Source of the DNA: Calothrix brevissima NIES-22
GTDB lineage: Bacteria > Cyanobacteriota > Cyanobacteriia > Cyanobacteriales > Nostocaceae
Length of the DNA: 64,000 nt
Assembly (NCBI RefSeq): GCF_002367995.1
Contig: NZ_AP018207.1
Span: 1,054,001 to 1,118,000 of the forward strand
Reading direction: 5' to 3'
In this document: positions 26,020 through 44,240 of the stretch, one piece after another
How the letters are laid out: each line of letters opens with the position of its first letter
Position numbering within the stretch: position 1 is the first letter of the stretch
Notes under the pieces: generated by a model
Told to the model about the DNA's origin: nothing
What the model saw: the letters and a program-made list of their open reading frames with translations, nothing else
Database searches by the model: none
Position numbers and translations under genes: made by a program

Positions 26020-26223
26020 TTAACGGCCTAGACTGCGCCAATCAACCAATACATCCTGAATGAGGATGGTCTTGTTATAGACTTGGAGAATAATCAGCAA
26101 AAAAACGAAAAATAATAGCATAAAAACAGCCATTACTGGTGTAGTTCCCCAACCAGGAGCAACTTTACCATACTCAGCGTTTAGGGGCCTCAGTATATCT
26201 CCCAACCTTGTCCTTTGTGCCAT
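26020..26223 (-). CDS. psbH: Photosystem II 10-kDa phosphoprotein homologue PsbH
   Basis: A 67-residue protein with the recognisable PsbH sequence: [26 protein letters not shown] then one membrane helix ([20 protein letters not shown]) and a lumenal end. PsbH is needed for PSII assembly and for stable QB-site function. The N-terminal Thr that is phosphorylated in plants is in the missing plant-type extension. It is divergent from psbN (85 bp apart) and ends at a strong terminator. Confidence 0.98.
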
Positions 26224-33163: not shown

Positions 33164-35599
33164 CTAAGTTTGTGAATTAGAATTAACCTGAGTTCGCATT
33201 TTTTCAAAGCTAAAGGCTGCTGCGCCAAAGGTGACTAGTAGTACTCCTAAAATTTGGACTAATTCTAAATTTTCTTGAATTAGTAAACCTGCAAAAATTA
33301 CTGTTAAGAATGGGACACTTGCACCAATAATTGCTGAACGGGGTGCGCCTAGTTGACGAATTCCCACATTATTGCAGATGTAACCAAATAATGTGAGTAC
33401 GCCTAAAATAAAGGCGCATAAAATCACTTCTAATAATCTAGCAGGTTGAAAATTTAAGCTTAAATCTCCTGAGAGGGGAATCATTAAGCCAATGACACTC
33501 AACAGCAACATGGTAGTGAAGTTAATCACTGTAAAGGATACTGGGTGCAATTTGCTGGCGCATATCCTGGTGAGGATGACGTAAACTGCAAAGGCAAATC
33601 CTGATAAAATGGCTGTGGTACTTCCCAGGGATACATTACCAACACCGCTAGCACCGCCTAAAATTAGTAACTCGCCGCAGAATAAAGCACCAATAGCTGC
33701 ATTACGGAATTTATTCGGGCGATCGCGGAATAAAAACCATGATAACAGTCCGCTAATCACAGGATAGATAAAGAAAAGTGCGATCGCCATTCCGGTAGTT
33801 ACTTGGCTAATTGCAATGTAAATCAGCACTTGTGATAAAAACAAAAAGCAACCGCTAGCAATAGACAACTGCAAAACTTTGAGTGTCTTGCTTTTGATCG
33901 GACTAGAATCTTTGCTGATTGAGCTAAATAGAGTTTGTAAGTCTTCCCAAACTCTCGGATGCATCATCGGCGCTAACAATAGCATCAGTGGTACAACCAC
34001 CAGCAACCGCAGCATCAAAATTAATAATATATTACCCAAAGTTGGTGACAGCAATCGCTCTACTTGCACTAATCCCAAAATTTCTGAGTCTTGCTGGAAA
34101 ATTACCTTAATAGCGACGTTGTATAGCGCCGATGCTGCTGTTGACAGCACAATCAGCAAAAAACCTATCTGAATTGATGATAAGTTGGCGGAGCTAGTTA
34201 AAGGTAGTGAAGGCGCAGCTAATCCTTGTTTGTTGGTTGATAAAGTCGTTTCGGGTGGAGTTTTCTGTTGTGATTCATCTCTAGAGGTGACAAAAATTGG
34301 CTGTTCCTGGTTACTCTTTACCGGTGGTGGTGTCGCTTCCGGTAACGGAACTATAGGTTCTGGTGCAGTTTCATTAGCTGATAATTCTGGAGAAAGCACA
34401 GAAATTGGCTCAGAATCGTTGCTGTTGAATGTGGTTGATGTTGGTTCTTGTTCAGCTATCGGTTCTGGTGTAGTTTCACTCTTTGATTCTGGCGCAATTA
34501 CAGAAATTGGTTCAAAGTAGTTATTTTTGAATGGTGCTAATGCAGCTTCTGTTTCAGATACAGTAGGCTCTGGTGTAAGTTCACTCGTTGATTCTGGCGC
34601 AATTACAGAAATTGGTTCAGAGTAGTTATTTTTGAATGGTGCTAATGCAGCTTCTGTTTCAGATACAGTAGGCTCTGGTGTAGGTTCATTTTCCGCAACT
34701 TCGGGAGCAATTACCGAAATTGGCTCATTTTCCTTTGCTGATGATTCCGGAACAATCACAGAAACTGGTTCGCTGACAATTTCCTTTTCTGGTAAAACGG
34801 TGACTTCCAGTGGTGCTGTAAAAGCTAGCGGTTGTGATGTGGTGTTATTTTCGGGAATTTCGCTAGAAATGCTGTTCTGTTGTGAACTGGCGGAATTTTC
34901 CCCAGTCATCTGCGACGGTGCTGGGGGAAGTTGGATGACAGTAGGGGGTGAGATAACGGTAGGTGGTGGTGCTTCTACTTGTAATACCGTCGGTGGTGAT
35001 AAAGGTTGAGTTTTTACTGAAGTTTCAGCAATTGTTTTTTCCAGTCCTTGCAGTCGGCTAATTAACTCGGCTATAATGAATTCCCCTTGCTGTTGTTGAC
35101 CTTCCATCCGAGACAGCTGTTGGGAAAGATTGCTTTGGTAGTTCTTCAGCTCCTGTTGCAGTAAATTAAAGGTGTTGGTCAGGCTATCATCCAAAGAACT
35201 GAGCATCTGCTCGACATTATCGTTGTTTTGTGCGGCTGCGTTTAAGCTTTGGTATGAGTTTTTTTCTATTGCTTCGCTAGCGATTGTCGTTAGCGAGGAT
35301 TGCATCTGGGAAGATATATGTTTTGCTAAAGCTTCTGCTAATTGACGAATTAACACCTGTTGTTCGGTGATTTGCTTTACCTGTTGTAACTGTTCTTTTT
35401 CGTCAAGCAGTCGCTGAATATCGTCACTTAAACGAGTTTTTTCGCCTTGAAGCTGTTTTACTTCCTCTTGTAGCGATCGCAAAATGTGCTGCTGAAGATT
35501 TTCTAAATCCTCAACAACCGCCCATAGCGCATTTTCTGCTGCTCTGGATAAATCGCCTCTTGCTCGCGGGTTGTCTGGTTGCTTCTCAAATCGCCCCAT
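33164..35599 (-). CDS. Coiled-coil / EamA (DMT) transporter fusion
   Basis: An 811-residue protein, over twice a normal DMT carrier. Residues about 20-100 and 130-195 are coiled coil (LQEEVKQLQGEKTRLSDDIQ). About 200-480 is a Pro/Glu/Thr/Ser linker with repeats such as EPISVIAPES, and about 490-800 holds ten membrane helices of the EamA fold (WFLFRDRPNKFRNAAIGALF, LGAPRSAIIGASVPFLTVIFAGLLIQENL). The DMT part likely exports or imports a small metabolite. The soluble part faces the cytoplasm if the carrier has standard topology. A 105-bp tandem repeat (34485-34689) lies in the linker. The start ATG at 35599 has no close competitor. Confidence 0.85.
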   Translation of the reverse strand: MGRFEKQPDNPRARGDLSRAAENALWAVVEDLENLQQHILRSLQEEVKQLQGEKTRLSDDIQRLLDEKEQLQQVKQITEQQVLIRQLAEALAKHISSQMQSSLTTIASEAIEKNSYQSLNAAAQNNDNVEQMLSSLDDSLTNTFNLLQQELKNYQSNLSQQLSRMEGQQQQGEFIIAELISRLQGLEKTIAETSVKTQPLSPPTVLQVEAPPPTVISPPTVIQLPPAPSQMTGENSASSQQNSISSEIPENNTTSQPLAFTAPLEVTVLPEKEIVSEPVSVIVPESSAKENEPISVIAPEVAENEPTPEPTVSETEAALAPFKNNYSEPISVIAPESTSELTPEPTVSETEAALAPFKNNYFEPISVIAPESKSETTPEPIAEQEPTSTTFNSNDSEPISVLSPELSANETAPEPIVPLPEATPPPVKSNQEQPIFVTSRDESQQKTPPETTLSTNKQGLAAPSLPLTSSANLSSIQIGFLLIVLSTAASALYNVAIKVIFQQDSEILGLVQVERLLSPTLGNILLILMLRLLVVVPLMLLLAPMMHPRVWEDLQTLFSSISKDSSPIKSKTLKVLQLSIASGCFLFLSQVLIYIAISQVTTGMAIALFFIYPVISGLLSWFLFRDRPNKFRNAAIGALFCGELLILGGASGVGNVSLGSTTAILSGFAFAVYVILTRICASKLHPVSFTVINFTTMLLLSVIGLMIPLSGDLSLNFQPARLLEVILCAFILGVLTLFGYICNNVGIRQLGAPRSAIIGASVPFLTVIFAGLLIQENLELVQILGVLLVTFGAAAFSFEKMRTQVNSNSQT
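34485..34689 (-). repeat. 105-bp in-frame tandem duplication in the DMT-fusion linker
   Basis: Two almost identical 105-bp copies (34485-34589 and 34590 to about 34689) encode 35 residues each, with SETEAALAPFKNNY and SEPISVIAPES. The unit is a multiple of three, so the frame is kept. Further diverged copies lie on both sides. Confidence 0.9.
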
Positions 35600-36321
35600 T
35601 CGCTTTTAACCTCTAACATTTTGACGATAAAGCTGCTTCCCGTATAACTGCTTGGCCTTCATACTAATTTCCTAGAGTTCGTTAGATAAACCAAAAATTT
35701 TAACAGTATTTACGCATACCAACGTAATTTTGTCATGCTGCACGCGGGGTTGCAAAGTAGATAATTTAGCTAATTAGTTAATATAGTGTGTTTGGTTTGG
35801 CATCACAGGTAAACATTCTGTCAGTCTTATTTCAATCATCTATGTTTTTAGCAGGATTTTTTCACGAGAAAAAATCTTACTGCAAATCAATACGTATTCT
35901 TTTTGTACAGATAGGAATTGTTAAAAACTTGTAAATGGATACTTTGTTACCACTAGTACCGCTACGCGGAAGTCAAAAGTCAAAAATCAAAAGTCAAAAG
36001 ACTTATATTCTGGGCTTTTGCGCCATTGAGAATGGTATGTTTATTGACGCCGTATTGTACTAGGTTAGATCAATTCTGCAACTAAACTCACTAACAGTAT
36101 TGAATGTAACTTCAGTGACGGTTTATATCTGTAAATATGGTTAAATTATTGGTTTGCGCTAATTCAGAATCTTGTCTACCTATGAAAATTATTCTAATTA
36201 ATTAACAGCAATTCTGCAAAAAGTATTTGGGCTTTAGCGTTCTTAAATTTGCATTTAGCTATTTTTGATACAGACACAAAGAAAATGAGAAAAATGTAAA
36301 TAATTAATGAGGATTCTGTTA
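35600..36321. other. 722-bp AT-rich intergenic region
   Basis: No gene or stable hairpin was seen. AGTCAAAAGTCAAAAATC heptamers occur at about 35971-36002. A palindromic stretch TTTTTTCACGAGAAAAAATC (near 35858-35877) could be a regulatory site. Both flanking genes are on the minus strand, so the promoter of the DMT fusion lies here. Confidence 0.6.
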
Positions 36322-37572
36322 TCAACTTGATAGAAAAAATATCTTAGCAATGCTAAAGATAGCAGCGCTGAGAATGGCGCTGATGGGAACAGTAATTAGC
36401 CATGCGGCGGCGATACCTTTTAAGGTTTGGAATTGAATCGACTTGAGATTTTGCACGAGTCCAATCCCCACCACGCCACCAACTAGGGCATGGGATGTAG
36501 ACACAGGTAAACCGAGACGAGAAGCGATGAGAATCGTTGTAGCGGTGGCGAGTTCCGCACAAAATCCACTGCTAGGTTGTAAGGCAATAATATTTTCGCC
36601 AATGGTAGCAATAACTTTTTTACCCCAAATGGCTAAACCACTAACAATAGCGACCCCACCAAGGATTAAAATCCATATGGGGATGGTAATGCCATTTATC
36701 GGGACGCTACCAGTTTGATTAATATAAACGATCGCGGCTAGAGGTGCGATCGCATTTCCCACATCATTAGAACCATGTGCAAAGGCGACAAAGCAAGCAC
36801 TCAGCAATTGAAACCGCCCAAATAACCGCTCAGTGGCGTTGGGGGTGGTATTGTCCTGTAATTGTCGCCAGCTATAAAAGGTGAGTCCCACGGCAGCGAT
36901 CGCACCTGTAAAAATGGGAATATCGTAAGCTGGGAGATTTAACCCAACTTGGTTAATTAAATAATTACTCAAAGGTTCAGTCAGCGATGGCAGAACAATC
37001 ACGCCAAATGTGCCGATGAGTACTGCACTCAACCAAGGAAGCCATTCATTTAACTGTATAAGTTGATTTGGTTGGTCTAAAATCCAGCGCTTGATTTGAC
37101 TGTAAAATAAAGCCGCGATCGCACCGCTAATCACAGGGGTTAAAATCCAGCCAATGGTAATTGAACCAATCGATGACCAATCAATTGCACCTACTCCCAA
37201 AGCTACCCAACTAAAACCCGCGATCGCACCGACAACCGCATGGGAAGAAGATACAGGTAACCCCCGCGATGTGGCGATTTGTAGCCACACCCCAGAGGCT
37301 AATAACACCGTCACCATCCCCAACACTAAAACTTGCGGTGTCGCCGCAAATAAAGCCGGATTAGCCACTTTTGTGGCGAGAGTTTCCGTTACCTCATGTC
37401 CAAACAATACCGCACCCGCAAACTCTAACACCCCAGCAATTATTAACGCCTGTTTTAAGGTAACAGCCTTAGAACCAACAGAAGTTCCCATTGCGTTAGC
37501 AACATCGTTAGCGCCAAGGTTAAAGGCGACGTAGAAGGCGAGTAGGGCGACGATTATGAGGGTGATGGGCAT
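36322..37572 (-). CDS. PiT-family inorganic phosphate permease
   Basis: A 416-residue permease of the Pit/PHO4 family with the inverted duplication signature: FNLGANDVANAMGTSVGSKAV near the N-terminus, then FAHGSNDVGNAIAPLAAIVY in the second half. About ten membrane helices. It takes up metal-phosphate with protons and is low-affinity. The stop lies next to an AT-rich region without a clear terminator. The upstream STRR separates it from the dehydrogenase gene. Confidence 0.95.
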   Translation of the reverse strand: MPITLIIVALLAFYVAFNLGANDVANAMGTSVGSKAVTLKQALIIAGVLEFAGAVLFGHEVTETLATKVANPALFAATPQVLVLGMVTVLLASGVWLQIATSRGLPVSSSHAVVGAIAGFSWVALGVGAIDWSSIGSITIGWILTPVISGAIAALFYSQIKRWILDQPNQLIQLNEWLPWLSAVLIGTFGVIVLPSLTEPLSNYLINQVGLNLPAYDIPIFTGAIAAVGLTFYSWRQLQDNTTPNATERLFGRFQLLSACFVAFAHGSNDVGNAIAPLAAIVYINQTGSVPINGITIPIWILILGGVAIVSGLAIWGKKVIATIGENIIALQPSSGFCAELATATTILIASRLGLPVSTSHALVGGVVGIGLVQNLKSIQFQTLKGIAAAWLITVPISAILSAAIFSIAKIFFLSS

Positions 37573-37574
37573 TT

Positions 37575-37660
37575 TTGATGGTTGATGGTTGACGGTTGAT
37601 GGTTGACTGTTGACTGTTGACTGTTACCTCTGACAACTGACAACTGACAACTGACTAATG
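37575..37660. repeat. Heptamer tandem repeat (GTTGACT/GACAACT type)
   Basis: Runs of 7-bp units: TTGATGG/TTGACTG changing to GACAACT at about 37632-37650. Comparable tracts are at 45762-45800, 51857-51911, 55206-55240 and 58938-59120. Such STRRs are a feature of heterocystous cyanobacterial genomes. Confidence 0.85.
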
Positions 37661-37664
37661 ACCA

Positions 37665-38711
37665 TTAAGGATAAATTAAAATTTTGTAGGTGTCTGGTTT
37701 GGGGGCGATCGCTTGTTCTACAGCTTGTGATAAATTTTGTAGGGGATAGCGATCGCTGATTAAGGCTTCTACATCAATCCGGCGATTAAAGACGATATCG
37801 GCTGAGAGATTTTGTAAGCGGTAGGATGAGCTATAACTGCCCATTAAGTCGATTTCGCGGCGATATAAAATATTGGGGTTGATGGGAATTTCGATTTCGT
37901 CGGGAAATTCTGCGAAAAACAGAATTTTACCACCTTTGCGAGTGCAATCTAAAGCTTGAAAGAAGGCTTTTTCGCTAGGTACGGCGAGTAAGGTAACATC
38001 TACACCCAAACCACCAGTGATAGCTTGAATTTTTGCAGGTAAATCAGCGTCACGGGCATCAAAAGCGGCTTCAGCACCGACATTTAAAGCCTTTTCAATT
38101 CTAGAGGGTAGTAAGTCGGTAGCGATCGCTCTACCACCAAAATACTTCACCAACATAATAAACATTAAGCCAATTGGCCCTGCACCTGTGATTAATACCG
38201 TTTGTCCCGGTGCAATTTGCGCTTTTTTGACTGCTTTTAAACAGCAATTAGTCGGCTCAACAAAACTCGCTGCTTCAAAACTGATATCATCGGGGATGGG
38301 AATTAAGCCGCCATTTTGCACAATATGTCCTGGGACTTTGACATATTCCGCAAAACCGCCACCACTGGCGTTAAATCCGGCGGTAGTCGAGATGTTTTTA
38401 TAAACATCACACATGGAATAATTTTCATTGAGGCAGTAGGCGCAACGCATACAGGGAATATGGTGCATTACCGCCACCCTTTGTCCCACTTGCCAATTTT
38501 TCACATCAGCACCCACAGATGCGATTGTACCCGCCGTTTCATGTCCAAAAATGCGCGGCGGTTCGTACAGGGGATAACGAATTTTCTTAATATCTGACTG
38601 ACACAATCCTACTACCCCCACCTTCACCAGCACTTCATCCGGTTCCAGAGTCGGGACTGGGATTTCTTCGTAGGAAAGTTGATTTACGCCTCTAAATACC
38701 TGTGCTTTCAC
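37665..38711 (-). CDS. Zinc-dependent medium-chain alcohol/polyol dehydrogenase
   Basis: A 348-residue MDR enzyme. The catalytic zinc site C37, H57-E58 (FGHETAGTI) and the structural zinc cysteines C87, C90, C93 and C101 are all present. A Rossmann loop GAGPIG lies at about 176-181. The fold is closest to sorbitol/threonine dehydrogenase types. It would oxidise a polyol or hydroxy compound with NAD(P). The exact substrate is not visible. ATG start at 38711. Confidence 0.88.
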   Translation of the reverse strand: MKAQVFRGVNQLSYEEIPVPTLEPDEVLVKVGVVGLCQSDIKKIRYPLYEPPRIFGHETAGTIASVGADVKNWQVGQRVAVMHHIPCMRCAYCLNENYSMCDVYKNISTTAGFNASGGGFAEYVKVPGHIVQNGGLIPIPDDISFEAASFVEPTNCCLKAVKKAQIAPGQTVLITGAGPIGLMFIMLVKYFGGRAIATDLLPSRIEKALNVGAEAAFDARDADLPAKIQAITGGLGVDVTLLAVPSEKAFFQALDCTRKGGKILFFAEFPDEIEIPINPNILYRREIDLMGSYSSSYRLQNLSADIVFNRRIDVEALISDRYPLQNLSQAVEQAIAPKPDTYKILIYP

Positions 38712-38770
38712 GTTGATTTTTCACCGCTCAACGTTACTAGATGTAACATTTACTGGTCAAAGTTAAGCTA

Positions 38771-39316
38771 TCAAATTTGAGATTTAATATTGCTTGTAAA
38801 TCTTGGTGCTTCTCTACTGAGTAATTCTAGAAGCTCAATAAAACTCATAGGTGGCTTTTTGAGACTTTGAGACTGTAGCTGTAACACCTCAATCACTTGT
38901 TCTGGATATAGATTATATAATTCAGTTAAAAAATCGTCTGGAGATTTGGCTTGGATTTGCCAAGGTGCTAAATCCCTCTCTTGAAAATGCTTCAAGTTTG
39001 AGGTGACAATGATATTAGCCTTAGCTATCACAGCCGCAGCTAGAACATGGCGATCGTTAGGATGATTTGTCATGAATTGAACAATATTTTCAGAAACTAC
39101 AATTAGTGCTGAGGGAAAAGCTTGTTTAATTCTCCCTTCTAGTCTCATAGCTTGGGTAGTTGTGAGTCTACCTGTATTGACCAGATTACGAGTTGCACCA
39201 TCAAGTATTTCTTGCGTCCAATATGGTAAATATAATCCAGCCTCAGCAAGACATAATAGTGTGTCTCGTAAGTACATAGGAAACAGTACACAAGAATCCA
39301 GCACAGCAAGATACAT
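38771..39316 (-). CDS. PIN-domain protein (toxin of an HTH-PIN pair)
   Basis: A 181-residue PIN protein: D7 (AVLDSCVLF), E36, and D88 in NDRHVLAAAVIAKANIIVTSN. The last acidic position is an Asn (N107), as in some PIN subfamilies of this size (PIN_3/COG1569-like). The gene lies 26 bp after an HTH-excisionase-type gene on the same strand, forming a toxin-antitoxin module. Whether it cuts RNA with the substituted residue is open. Confidence 0.8.
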   Translation of the reverse strand: MYLAVLDSCVLFPMYLRDTLLCLAEAGLYLPYWTQEILDGATRNLVNTGRLTTTQAMRLEGRIKQAFPSALIVVSENIVQFMTNHPNDRHVLAAAVIAKANIIVTSNLKHFQERDLAPWQIQAKSPDDFLTELYNLYPEQVIEVLQLQSQSLKKPPMSFIELLELLSREAPRFTSNIKSQI

Positions 39317-39342
39317 AATACTCAGTCAAGCATCGAGACACC

Positions 39343-39798
39343 CTACTCATAAAATCCTAAATCTTGGCTTTCAGCTATTAATTCATCTAGCAATTGTCTA
39401 CGTTTACTATCCCTTTGCTGTTTATATTTTTTTAAATCCTCAAATTTCACCCTTCTATGAGTTCCTACCATAATGTAAGGAAGTTCACCCTGCTCTAATA
39501 ATTTAATTAGATAGGGACGCGATACATTTAACAAATCCGCCGCCTGTTGTGTAGTCAGTTCAGGATTATATGTAACTATAGATACATTTTTACCTGATGC
39601 CATTGCTTGTACTACTTGACGTAATACATAAAATACAGAATCAGGAATAGTAATTTCTTCAACGTTTTCTGCGACTAATTTTACTTGACTATTTTTCTGA
39701 TTGAGTATATTGTCAAGCTTCTGAAGCGCTTCAGTTTCAGATTCTTTAATTAGACTGGAATCAGTCGGCAGATTTTGGTTAGATAGGAAAGTATACAT
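39343..39798 (-). CDS. Antitoxin with excisionase-type helix-turn-helix
   Basis: A 151-residue protein from ATG 39798. An upstream ATG at 39870 adds 24 residues (DFDFVYCVCVV...) that do not look like a normal start; I chose the internal one. The DNA-binding part at the C-terminal half reads TTQQAADLLNVSRPYLIKLLEQG then PYIMVGTHRRVKFEDL, the MerR/excisionase fold. The N-terminal half probably contacts the PIN partner. Autoregulation is likely. Confidence 0.78.
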   Translation of the reverse strand: MYTFLSNQNLPTDSSLIKESETEALQKLDNILNQKNSQVKLVAENVEEITIPDSVFYVLRQVVQAMASGKNVSIVTYNPELTTQQAADLLNVSRPYLIKLLEQGELPYIMVGTHRRVKFEDLKKYKQQRDSKRRQLLDELIAESQDLGFYE

Positions 39799-39979
39799 AA
39801 ACAGCTTGAGCTTGATATTTAGTTTTGATTGTACTACACAAACGCAATAAACGAAATCAAAATCAAGCATTCATCCACAATACAGGGCTAAAAAATAATC
39901 GATCTAATCTCTAGTAAAGGATATTAAAACTACCTTGTCTAAGGTAGCCTAACTGGGTATATTCCAGTGGGGTTAAGCA

Positions 39980-41746
39980 ATGCTGAATCAGACATATCAA
40001 GCTGATGTTTTAGTTGTCGGTGGCGGAGTTGGGGGTACAGCAGCAGCGATTCAAGCAGCGCGACGCGGGGCGAAAACTATCTTGGTGAGTGAGTTTGCTT
40101 GGTTGGGGGGAATGTTAACCTCAGCAGGGGTATCTGTTCCTGATGGAAATGAATTAGAAGCGTTTCAGACGGGGTTGTGGGGCGAATTTTTACGAGAATT
40201 GCAGCAACGTCAGCCAGAAGGTTTAGATCATAGCTGGGTAAGCTTTTTTAGTTTCGATCCGCGAGTAGGGGCGCAGATTTTCGCCGATTGGGTGCAAGAA
40301 TTAGCAAATCTGCATTGGATTGCGGGGGAAGTTCCCCTAGAGGTGTTGCGTGAGGGAAGTTGTGTCACTGGCGTGAGGTTTAGTAATTTTATTGTCAAAG
40401 CCAAAATTACTCTCGATGGTACAGAGTTAGGCGATTTATTGGCTTTGGCGGAAATACCTTATCGTTGGGGTTGGGAATGGCAAGAGCAATGGGGAGAACT
40501 AAGCGCCCCAGAGTCTCCTAATCATCTCACAGAAAAATACCCCGTACAAGCGCCCACAGGGGTGGTGCTAATGCAGGATTTTGGCATAGATACTGCCCCA
40601 GAAATTCCCCCAGCGCCAAATTACGATCCATCTTTATTTGTTGGCGCTTGGGATAACTATGGTGCAGAACAGTTTATCAATTACGGGCGCTTACCAGGCG
40701 GTTTATTAATGATAAATTGGCCGATCTGCGGTAACGACTATGGCGAAGGTTTAGGGCGGCTGGTAGAGTCAAAAGTACGCAGAGATGAGTTTATTCAAGA
40801 ATCTCGCTGGCATAGCCAAAATTTTGCCCATTTTATCCAAAATCAACTTGGTCGGCGTTACGGTCTAGCTACACAGGTATTTCCCCATTCTCCTAGCGCT
40901 TTTGCTTTGCATCCCTATTATCGGGAAAGTCGGCGGTTAGTGGGAATGAAGACAATTACAGAACAAGATATCTTACCTGTGTCTGGGGGTCAGGTAGCAT
41001 CATTAAATATAGATACAATTGCGATCGCCAATTATCCCAACGATCACCATTACCCAGGCTTTGACTTTCCCCTCCAACCAAAATCAATTCGTTGGGGGGG
41101 ACGCTGGACGGGAACGCCCTTCACTATTCCCTACAGCAGTCTCATTCCTATCAATACAGATGGTTTTTTAGTCTGCGAAAAGAATATTTCTGTATCACAT
41201 ATTGCTAATGGGGCTACGAGATTACAACCTGTCGTCATGGGAATTGGTCAAGCAGCAGGTATGGCTGCGGCTATGTGTATAGAGTTTAATTGCCAACCGC
41301 GCGATTTACCAGTAAAAGCGCTGCAAATGTCTTTAATGCAAGACCAGCGTTCTCCAGCAGCAATTATTCCCTTGTTTAATTCAACACCAGCAGATATTCA
41401 GTGGCTGCAATGGCAAACACATTATTTACATAATCCAGCCAGCTATCCACTTGATGGCAATTTTCCCACTTCATCGCCATCTACGTATTATTACGATAGT
41501 CCAAAAACTGTGTTATCACGGTTGCCTAATTCTTTTTCAGGTGTACTTCATCTAATATCTCCGCAGAATTACAGATTTAGTATAATTACTCCTAAAGCTT
41601 ATCAACAGTCAACTTGGCAGCTTGTAACCTTGCGATCGCACGTGAATTTACAACTACAAGCTTGTAACCATAAGCAATTGCTGACAGTTAGCGGTCGAAT
41701 TAACCCTGCTGGTAATTGGCTACTAGTCGAATATATGGATATTTGA
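39980..41746 (+). CDS. FAD-dependent oxidoreductase (FAD_oxidored family)
   Basis: A 588-residue flavoprotein. The dinucleotide-binding loop is VLVVGGGVGGTAAAIQAARRG (10-30), followed by LGGMLTSAGVSVPDG and, late, NGATRLQPVVMGIGQAAGMAAAMC, the FAD-contact block of family PF12831. Substrate unknown; relatives are often linked to carbohydrate turnover. It ends 85 bp before the patX-like gene, in the same direction, but a separate promoter element (41794-41799) lies between. Confidence 0.85.
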   Translation: MLNQTYQADVLVVGGGVGGTAAAIQAARRGAKTILVSEFAWLGGMLTSAGVSVPDGNELEAFQTGLWGEFLRELQQRQPEGLDHSWVSFFSFDPRVGAQIFADWVQELANLHWIAGEVPLEVLREGSCVTGVRFSNFIVKAKITLDGTELGDLLALAEIPYRWGWEWQEQWGELSAPESPNHLTEKYPVQAPTGVVLMQDFGIDTAPEIPPAPNYDPSLFVGAWDNYGAEQFINYGRLPGGLLMINWPICGNDYGEGLGRLVESKVRRDEFIQESRWHSQNFAHFIQNQLGRRYGLATQVFPHSPSAFALHPYYRESRRLVGMKTITEQDILPVSGGQVASLNIDTIAIANYPNDHHYPGFDFPLQPKSIRWGGRWTGTPFTIPYSSLIPINTDGFLVCEKNISVSHIANGATRLQPVVMGIGQAAGMAAAMCIEFNCQPRDLPVKALQMSLMQDQRSPAAIIPLFNSTPADIQWLQWQTHYLHNPASYPLDGNFPTSSPSTYYYDSPKTVLSRLPNSFSGVLHLISPQNYRFSIITPKAYQQSTWQLVTLRSHVNLQLQACNHKQLLTVSGRINPAGNWLLVEYMDI

Positions 41747-41793
41747 TAAAGTTTATTTTTATTCTGTAAAAAACAATACTTTTTAGGGAATTG

Positions 41794-41799
41794 TCCGGA
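41794..41799 (+). promoter_or_regulatory. DIF1-type element TCCGGA upstream of patX-like gene
   Basis: TCCGGA at 41794-41799 takes the place of a -35 box. With the usual spacing, transcription would start near 41830, giving a leader of about 25 nt before the ATG at 41856. In Anabaena, DIF1-class promoters with TCCGGA drive HetR-dependent transcription in developing heterocysts. The downstream -10 region (AACTAAGTA, about 41812-41820) is weak. Role inferred. Confidence 0.6.
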
Positions 41800-41855
41800 T
41801 GCACTAATAGAAACTAAGTAGCAGTGAATATGTGAGTTACAAAATAACATCTGCT

Positions 41856-42092
41856 ATGCGTGCGTTAATTTCACTTTTAGCTTCTAGCCTGGTAACGGCT
41901 ACCTTAATTTTCAGCTATCAAGTCATGGTCAATTTAATGTCCGATATGTTGCTGGTTTCTGAGGCTACACCAACTTTGCTCTCAGCCAGACCCAAAACCA
42001 AACCCAATCAACCAGAAAAACCTGTACCACACCGTGGTAGCGGACGTAGAGAGTTAATGGAGTATAACCGTAATGCCCGTTCTGTTGTTTAA
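41856..42092 (+). CDS. patX: PatX-like RGSGR-containing heterocyst inhibitor precursor
   Basis: A 78-residue protein from the ATG at 41856; a GTG at 41832 would add eight residues but lies almost at the predicted transcription start. It has a signal peptide-like helix (RALISLLASSLVTATLIFSYQ), a Pro/Lys-rich middle (SARPKTKPNQPEKPVP) and then HRGSGRREL, with RGSGR encoded at 42033-42047. The pentapeptide RG(S/T)GR is the active part of PatS, HetN and PatX, which bind the master regulator HetR and stop neighbouring cells from differentiating. Size, signal peptide and HRG(S/T)GR near the C-terminus agree with PatX. HetR itself is not in the window. Confidence 0.82.
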   Translation: MRALISLLASSLVTATLIFSYQVMVNLMSDMLLVSEATPTLLSARPKTKPNQPEKPVPHRGSGRRELMEYNRNARSVV

Positions 42093-42711
42093 TCGCTTTA
42101 GCTGCAATTTTCTTGTCTTTGAGGAGTTTAATTACAGACAAATTGGGTGTTGTGCTTAACATCCTTTACATCATTAATTTAGTAAAGAGATAACAGTCAA
42201 CACATAGAATATCAGCATTTGTGCCGTAGTCTATCCGTAAATTGATGTATATATAGTCCGTTGTATCCCTGATGTTACGAATGTGTCAAAAATCCCAGTG
42301 CATGTATTAATCGCATCACCAACTCCTCTCAAAGCTGCGTTTACTGCTTCTAACTCCTTTAATCTCCCAGATGTCATTTAGGTCAACGGTTCTATCGAGG
42401 GTTTCTGATTCCGATCTATTCTCAGTCATTTACTCAGCCGATCAACCCATCGATAGTTTGAAACCGTTACCCAGTTAAGCCAATAATTTACGCTAAATTA
42501 ATAGACAGCTTTACCAAGCGATCGCAACTTGCAATCTCAGATGTTATTTCTGATTGCGGTAGCTAGCGCTGTTGCAACACAAATCTTTTGCAATCTGTCA
42601 CGATCGAAACAAGACTTTGTGGATTATGTGCCATGTCTGTACGATCTCTTGCAACTCAATTGTGTTGAACTTGTGCAATGGCTACATCACCAGTAAATAA
42701 CCCTCAATCTG
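42093..42711. other. 619-bp intergenic region after patX with a possible folded RNA
   Basis: No gene found. An interrupted inverted repeat lies at 42385-42468: AACGGTT-CTATCGA pairs with TCGATAG and then AACCGTT (five extra bases on the right arm). The loop contains CCGATC and CTCAG twice each. It could be a structured leader or small RNA. The remainder holds the probable promoter of the deacetylase gene. Confidence 0.5.
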
Positions 42712-43401
42712 ATGAAAATGCAGCTAGCTTCTGTTTTACCAATTCTTTATCGTATTCTCCAGCCAAGATTTAGCAATTGTTTGTGGAGTGGAGACGATAA
42801 TTCTCGCGCCATCGCCCTGACCTTTGATGATGGCCCTCATCCCCGCTATACTCCTGAATTATTGGCTGTTTTAGATCGTTATCAAATTAGAGCTAGTTTT
42901 TTTTGGTTAGGTGCTTGTGTCAACCGTTCCCCAGAGATTGCTAAAGCAATATGCGATCGCGGACACTGGATTGGATTGCATGGTTACGATCATCAATCTT
43001 TTCCCCTGCTATCCCCAATACAACTGCGAGATACCTTAGAAAAAACCCAAGCTGCGATATATACTGCTTGCAATCTTCCGCCAGAACAAGTCAGGGATGT
43101 ACGTCCACCAAACGGTTTATTCACACCCAAAATTTTAAAATATTTATTGCAGTGGAATTATCGCCCAGTCATGTGGAGCGTAGTTCCAGTTGATTGGACT
43201 AGACCAGGAGTTTCCACTGTAACGCAGCGTGTTTCTCAACAAGTAAAAAATGGTTCCATCATTGTTTTACATGATGGTGCTTATGGCGGTCAAGATGTTG
43301 CTGCCACCAGTGAAATTTTAATTCCCCAACTACTACAAAAAGGCTATCGATTTGTGACTATCGATACTTTTTGGCAACCAGTAAAAATTAAAAATTCGTA
43401 A
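42712..43401 (+). CDS. Polysaccharide deacetylase (NodB/CE4 domain)
   Basis: A 229-residue CE4 enzyme. Motifs: ALTFDDGPHP with D39-D40, HGYDHQS with H90 and H94 binding the metal, RPPNG at about 131-135, and IIVLHDG near the C-terminus. It removes acetyl or other acyl groups from a glycan such as peptidoglycan or an exopolysaccharide. Start ATG at 42712; the Met at residue 3 is equally possible. Divergent-free position after patX. Confidence 0.92.
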   Translation: MKMQLASVLPILYRILQPRFSNCLWSGDDNSRAIALTFDDGPHPRYTPELLAVLDRYQIRASFFWLGACVNRSPEIAKAICDRGHWIGLHGYDHQSFPLLSPIQLRDTLEKTQAAIYTACNLPPEQVRDVRPPNGLFTPKILKYLLQWNYRPVMWSVVPVDWTRPGVSTVTQRVSQQVKNGSIIVLHDGAYGGQDVAATSEILIPQLLQKGYRFVTIDTFWQPVKIKNS

Positions 43402-43613
43402 TTAAAAATTCGTAATTAGTTGATGGCAAACAAGCCAACCATCACAGAGTTATACCAATTCAAAATTCAAAATTCAGAATTCAAAATTAAGAAAGCTAGA
43501 TATCACCAGGCTTTGAGCATGTTTATCTGTAGCATTCTTTTTTATTGGTGTTACCTCTACAAGTCTACTATTCACCATTTTTTAATTACGAATTACGAAT
43601 TACGAATTAGTAA

Positions 43614-43949
43614 TTATTTACCATGTCCTATTGGTGCGACTTCAGCATCAGTACTGGTAGGTGGTGCAGGTTCCTCAGTTCCTAAAAGATGATGTATTTC
43701 ACTTAATGAACTTGGTTGTGCTTCTGGTTGTTTTGGGGAATCGCCCATATATTCAATTAGGTCTTCTACTTGGCAATTGAGTGCTTTACAAAACCTAATT
43801 ATGCGTTCAATATGATCCGTCCCAGTTCTACCGCTTTCCCAGTTCTGGATAGTGCTTTCAGTCACGCCAACAAGACGTGACAACTCAAGCTGGGTTAGCC
43901 CTGCTTTTTCCCGAAGCAAAGCGATCCTTGGTTTTGGCTTTTGTTTCAC
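43614..43949 (-). CDS. XRE-family helix-turn-helix regulator
   Basis: A 111-residue protein with an N-terminal Cro/CI-type HTH (KPRIALLREKAGLTQLELSRLVGVTESTIQNWESGRT, residues 6-42) followed by a helical part (RIIRFCKALNCQVEDLIEYMG). The C-terminal tail is Pro/Ser/Glu-rich and ends PIGHGK. It probably binds a palindromic site as a dimer; targets unknown. The last codons run into an AT-rich repeat tract. A frame on the other strand is chance. Confidence 0.85.
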   Translation of the reverse strand: MKQKPKPRIALLREKAGLTQLELSRLVGVTESTIQNWESGRTGTDHIERIIRFCKALNCQVEDLIEYMGDSPKQPEAQPSSLSEIHHLLGTEEPAPPTSTDAEVAPIGHGK

Positions 43950-44240
43950 AGCTATAGCACTTGTTTTTGATTATTTATAGACGTAGATCCTAGCACCAAA
44001 AAAAAGCGGCGCTAAAAAAACACCAGAAAAAATTTGGTTCCAATCTGCTCCTTGAGAATGTTAAGTTTTACTATGTTCATACCAACAGGAATCTTAATAT
44101 TTTCTCCAGTAACTCAACTGTATTGAGTGATAGCTTTACCCGTCATCAAGGGCGTTTTTGATGAAACCAAAATGTGGCGAAACGATGACATATTGCTCAA
44201 AAGACGCAAGAAAAATTAACCCTAATTCCTAGCTCCTAGT
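43950..44240. other. Intergenic region upstream of MITE-like element B
   Basis: AT-rich; holds the XRE gene's promoter region. No gene. It runs into CTCCTAG heptamers at the left flank of the element at 44241. Confidence 0.5.

Follow-up and report, generated by a model that had tools for sequence, protein, structure and literature searches.

We analysed a window of 64,000 nucleotides from the 9.26 Mb genome of Calothrix brevissima NIES-22 (nine contigs; the window is C1:1054001-1118000), in which an open reading frame of 78 residues runs on the forward strand from an ATG at 41856 to a stop at 42092 (translation MRALISLLASSLVTATLIFSYQVMVNLMSDMLLVSEATPTLLSARPKTKPNQPEKPVPHRGSGRRELMEYNRNARSVV). 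An earlier note on this DNA had described a signal-like N-terminus, a Pro/Lys linker and HRGSGR near the end of the protein, and all three are seen in the reading frame. Hydropathy, computed for 14 fifteen-residue windows at every third residue from 1 to 40, is greatest at residues 4-18 (Kyte-Doolittle, 2.13), so that residues 1-19 (41856..41912, +) would provide the n- and h-region of a Sec-type signal sequence, with the Pro/Lys linker coming next. The hexapeptide HRGSGR, the expected HetR-binding product, occupies residues 59-64 (42030..42047, +) and contains the pentapeptide RGSGR (residues 60-64; 42033-42047, +), and it is followed by a C-terminal tail of 14 residues (RELMEYNRNARSVV; 42048..42089, +). 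An alternative GTG start at 41832, 24 nt upstream of the ATG, is possible, but the family profile begins at the ATG, and in most of the fetched orthologues a stop codon precedes the start by a few codons.

The coding sequence (41856..42092, +) matches the NCBIfam equivalog model NF047413.1 (heterocyst_PatX, 'heterocyst-inhibiting protein PatX') with residues 1-66 aligned to profile positions 1-68 of 69 (E 1.5e-21), and the search against the PatX family model that had been proposed as a check thus returned 76.9 bits against a cut-off of 30. Pfam gave zero matches to the 78-residue protein at E up to 10. The occurrence of RG(S/T)GR is by itself mildly improbable, with one observed in the six frames of the window where 40 order-1 Markov copies contain 0.075 on average. 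The PatX identity is settled by the NF047413 match, which spans residues 1-66 at E 1.5e-21.

To place the gene among its relatives we used a sample of 118 genomes of the host's family, the host included, all 118 of which have hetR. The family-model search found patX in 112 of them at E up to 0.001 and in 111 over the cut-off, and the orthologue set comprises one patX from each of these 111 genomes, the host's included; a second copy in G086 (38% contamination listed) and the below-cut-off patX of G043 were excluded from the counts, and at three loci with two candidate reading frames the one bearing the PatX N-terminus was chosen. The motif is RGSGR in 109 orthologues, RGTGR in one (L085) and RGGGR in one (L082), and therefore the S form is the family rule. 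The earlier note was right to read S rather than T, but the S form is no special variant. In the parts of the literature that we consulted, RGTGR is described as restricted to a few PatX alleles, that of PCC 7120 included (Khudyakov et al. 2020, PMC7761841). Immediately before the motif stands H in 73 of the 111 orthologues and Y in 29 (H or Y in 102), and a tail of exactly 14 residues is found in 64, the host's included. One orthologue (L121, genome G032), counted among the 109, has RGSGR upstream and RGEGR as its C-terminal copy, and it is possible that the active peptide has shifted within this precursor.

The family-model search found a single patX over the cut-off in the host genome. We rejected a second copy: there are two weak matches only (E 0.13 and 0.64), both interrupted by an in-frame stop, and weak matches at that level also occur in 11 of 14 control genomes. 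There is likewise one hetR, at C1:1010083-1010529 (-) (E 1.3e-78), encoding a HetR of 299 residues, all of which match the crystallised HetR entries 3qod (E 2.8e-188) and 4hri (8.4e-188), while residues 218-299 match entry 4ynl. This HetR retains all six of R223, E253, E254, D256, D270 and D278, residues whose mutation is reported to lower or abolish PatS6 binding (PMC4649674). An open frame ending in IMLMNATDERGSGR (G000:C1:6925845) is a good PatS candidate. The gene adjoining it (L198:1537-2049) is of the TsaE family (Pfam, E 6.3e-37); in PCC 7120 patS adjoins hetY, a gene of the TsaE kind. What speaks against the PatS candidate is that no TCCGGA is present in the 900 nt before its motif. 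The RGSGR-stop DNA pattern used in the search for PatS genes can miss some of them because it allows CGN alone for the first Arg, and a bare RGSGR DNA pattern, with 194 places genome-wide, was too unspecific, admitting Thr, Cys, Trp, Arg or a stop at the third place and Ser at the fifth.

The three findings that the earlier note had named as speaking against a patX-like gene were no PatX homologue in close relatives, no hetR in the genome and an RGSGR without conservation among orthologues. None of the three holds: patX is present in the four other sampled genomes of the genus (4/4), and the hetR and the 109 of 111 motifs are as given above. With the equivalog match and a DIF1 motif at its usual place, these results bear out the patX identity.

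The neighbourhood had been described as lacking patterning genes. This stands insofar as hetR lies 85 kb away, and fails insofar as the region belongs to a hetR-patX cluster. Across the 111 genomes, patX and hetR share a contig in 71 and lie on different contigs in 40. When distance is taken along the contig, they lie within 20 kb of each other in 47 of the 71 (42 divergent, 5 tandem) and further apart in 24. The host is one of the 24, and its patX and hetR are still divergent. The gene order in G003, a genome of the same genus, is hetR, EamA-type transporter, phosphate permease, alcohol dehydrogenase, a 147-residue open reading frame, FAD enzyme, patX and polysaccharide deacetylase (labels taken from Pfam matches of the window's copies), and the window's DNA from 33.2 to 44.0 kb (33164-44040), on both sides of patX, matches the patX-hetR region of G003 in order. 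We assign the window region to the hetR-patX cluster because of the 42 of 71 genomes with a divergent pair at most 20 kb apart and this ordered match. By blastn the 147-residue frame of G003 has no match in the window, in which two other reading frames occupy its place.

Several further features were seen in this region. The cluster is split in the host, with ~76 kb (G000:C1:1010887-1087163) between hetR and the EamA-type gene, which are neighbours in G003. G056, also of this genus, carries hetR and patX on separate contigs, and a stretch of 8.8 kb beyond its EamA gene has no match longer than 200 nt in the 113 kb of host DNA with which it was compared. A sub-threshold PIN-domain match (PF13470, 24.3 against 27 bits) stands beside an HTH_17 protein (38771-39316, -, and 39343-39870, -); these two are possibly a toxin-antitoxin pair, and G003 holds a different reading frame in their place. 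Beyond the deacetylase gene, a small HTH protein (HTH_31/HTH_3; 43614-43949, -) is encoded by DNA found at the same position in G003 and G056. The single Rfam match across the whole window is to Plastid-psbN 5'UTR (26122-26182, +; 51 bits against a gathering score of 50), with none near patX.

Upstream of patX, a DIF1 motif, TCCGGA, is located at 41794..41799 (+), 62 nt before the ATG. DIF1 is the element through which patS, patX and hetR are reported to be upregulated in (pro)heterocysts (PMC7377430). Its position is conserved, with a distance to the ATG of 63 nt in 86 and of 62 nt in 18 of the 111 orthologues, a total of 104 at 62-63 nt. In two further orthologues the motif is at 54 and 66 nt, where the chosen start codon may be off, and in five of the 111 there is none within 500 nt of the ATG. 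The density of TCCGGA across the same loci is 0.37 per kb, with the DIF1 copies themselves counted in. The sequence TAAGTA (41815..41820, +), 15 nt downstream of DIF1 and in conserved columns -42 to -37, is a candidate -10-like box that may serve as part of the promoter. A short leader of approximate extent (41827..41855, +), highly conserved in relatives, would follow.

Upstream of patX (L013-L122), conservation is unusually high from DIF1 to the ATG. We compared leaders in the 86 orthologues with 63-nt spacing, a set in which DIF1 therefore has an identity of 1.0 by construction and from which leaders of changed length are excluded. In a subset of 34 representatives, each under 75% identical to the others, the mean identity between pairs is 0.79 over the last 26 nt before the ATG, while upstream it is 0.32 at -160 to -101 and 0.60 at -100 to -64; for codons 1-16 it is 0.66, 0.87 and 0.63 by codon position. 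The last 26 nt, with the consensus GGAGAGTTCTAAAATAGACATCTGCT, are thus about as conserved as the signal-sequence codons, and the window's own leader, with its 62-nt spacing, differs from the consensus at several places. An upstream open reading frame in the leader was rejected on an alignment judged by eye: its start codon is not retained, and in the window the frame ends immediately. The fixed spacing of 62-63 nt together with the conserved last 26 nt suggests an RNA-level element or an extended activator site. That the leader provides a second layer of control over patX, either in the RNA, as a target of a small RNA or a site of translation control, or as a patX-specific extended activator site, is a tentative proposal that we think rather unlikely to prove right; if true, it would give a testable new control point on the inhibitor. 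In the literature consulted we found no mention of a patX leader, and 'UTR' beside patX there concerns 3' UTRs; such a leader may well be in print, for example in the founding 2018 paper.

Six of the 118 hetR-positive genomes have no patX at E up to 0.001: G017, G065 and G093 (genus g17; L213, L214), G033 and G078 (g33) and the 88%-complete G082 (g43), with loci L143-L154. A looser family-model search of these six (E up to 10) gave weak matches in each, with a best E of 0.10; all stayed below the cut-off, and the same search also gave weak matches in 12 of 14 control genomes. Reading frames of fewer than 200 residues near hetR in the six genomes, within a reach of at most ~16 kb and less at contig ends, were searched for RG(S/T/G/A/E/D)GR and for PatX-like N-termini and yielded no patX; the sole frame retrieved carries RGAGR in G017 and has no PatX-like N-terminus. 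The DIF1-plus-leader pattern occurs at 20 places in eight genomes, one to five of them in each of the six patX-negative genomes, and an RG.GR motif within 550 nt is present only at the host's own patX and at the patX of G043, with none at the other 18 places. The patX of G043 falls below the family cut-off, and therefore the NF047413 model can miss a real patX; the six genomes may hold a very distant or unassembled one.

The patX-negative genomes of g17 and g33 keep peptides that end in RGSGR. In the three g17 genomes a peptide ends in DDRGSGR (L186:1411-1515, L188:1411-1515, L187:1504-1581 (-)), whose start in L187 must differ because the longer reading has an in-frame stop. TCCGGA is absent from the 900 nt before the motif of this peptide, which is possibly a divergent PatS. 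The g33 genomes encode a PatS-like peptide with ERGSGR at its end, and DIF1 lies 666-667 nt before that motif. The peptide of L186 is 100% identical to one in Chlorogloeopsis fritschii PCC 6912, so g17 is probably Chlorogloeopsis. In the literature searched we found no paper that combines Chlorogloeopsis with patX. The six genomes run against the statement that PatX is present in all HetR-containing cyanobacteria (PMC7761841). The occurrence of hetR without patX is not wholly new, given that a combination of patP and hetR without patX is reported for 12.0% of genomes (PMC12756182) and that Chlorogloeopsis has an entry in a table on 'alternative patS' (PMC5812504). Lineages that have hetR but no recognisable patX set a limit to the view that every HetR comes with a PatX.

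We conclude that 41856..42092 is an ordinary, standard patX of a filamentous cyanobacterium, a known and widely shared gene. As the single patX of its genome it almost certainly encodes the precursor of a HetR-inhibiting, heterocyst-spacing peptide, as in PCC 7120. Family membership, the motif, DIF1 with its spacing, a hetR with the peptide-contacting residues and a PatS candidate are all present, and as a PatX orthologue the gene extends a known, curated family by one genome, with the expected set of patX, hetR and PatS candidate. For induction, export, cleavage, diffusion and inhibition we infer the course of events from work on PCC 7120. There, export is reported to be required for PatX function, with maturation by the peptidase PatP, and the PatX hexapeptide HRGTGR (PatX6) has a Kd of 88 nM for HetR, whose DNA binding it abolishes in vitro (PMC12756182). 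By analogy, nitrogen step-down would turn on patX in prospective heterocysts from the DIF1 promoter, in a HetZ- and HetR-dependent manner if PCC 7120 is a guide. PatX would then be exported via Sec and cut outside the cytoplasm, as by PatP in PCC 7120, releasing HRGSGR. The hexapeptide would diffuse to neighbouring cells and bind the lateral cleft of the HetR hood domain; HetR would be taken off DNA, and the neighbours would not differentiate. Some observations weigh against this reading: inactivation of patX in PCC 7120 is reported to have no discernible phenotype in nitrogen-depleted medium (PMC7761841), and as the host also has a PatS candidate, the role of its patX may be redundant; moreover, five of the 111 orthologues lack DIF1 within 500 nt.

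Alternatively, this could be an orthologue of PatX whose action is no longer mainly on HetR, either an independent regulator or a vestige in a genome patterned by PatS. Deletion transcriptomes in Leptolyngbya BL0902 suggest PatX effects largely independent of HetR (PMC11298460), and therefore HetR inhibition need not hold in every lineage. The IMLMNATDERGSGR-ending PatS candidate beside a TsaE-family gene in the host would also fit this explanation. Against it, RGSGR and DIF1 are intact here and conserved in relatives, the HetR pocket residues are present, and it is patX that has a TCCGGA upstream and the PatS candidate that lacks one over the 900 nt before its motif. We regard this explanation as improbable. 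That a chance open reading frame or an unrelated secreted peptide carries RGSGR by accident, as the shortness of the motif and the ~0.075 RG(S/T)GR expected per window might invite one to think, deserves practically no credence and is refuted by the NF047413 match over residues 1-66 and by the orthologues that pass the cut-off in 111 of 118 genomes, among which motif and promoter are conserved.

Among known systems, the closest is the PatX of Anabaena/Nostoc PCC 7120, asl2332 (Elhai and Khudyakov 2018, as cited in PMC7761841). The two share the signal-like N-terminus, the Pro/Lys linker, HRG(S/T)GR near the C-terminus, the upstream DIF1 and a hetR in the genome, and they differ in the motif, which is RGTGR there and the commoner RGSGR here. 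The host's gene also stands out in its distance from hetR, 85 kb, when 47 of the 71 genomes with both genes on one contig have them no more than 20 kb apart. HetN has an RGSGR motif in some strains (PMC5812504), but is a ketoacyl reductase (PMC4649674), whereas PatX has no Pfam match; we rejected a HetN identity for this 78-residue protein, which lacks a short-chain dehydrogenase/ketoreductase domain (Pfam, E up to 10). PatS shares the RGSGR pentapeptide and is likewise an expected HetR inhibitor. In PCC 7120, however, it has 17 residues, ends in ERGSGR and is probably both produced and cleaved in the cytoplasm (PMC12756182). A PatS identity, which needs a terminal (D/E)RGSGR, was rejected here, since 14 residues follow RGSGR and a separate PatS candidate exists. 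The 'alternative PatS' of Section IV/V cyanobacteria resembles the gene in its conserved prolines before Y/HRGSGR, and in PMC5812504 the sequences are termed of unknown function. The difference lies in the name only, and from the description we infer that 'alternative PatS' is the PatX family under another name.
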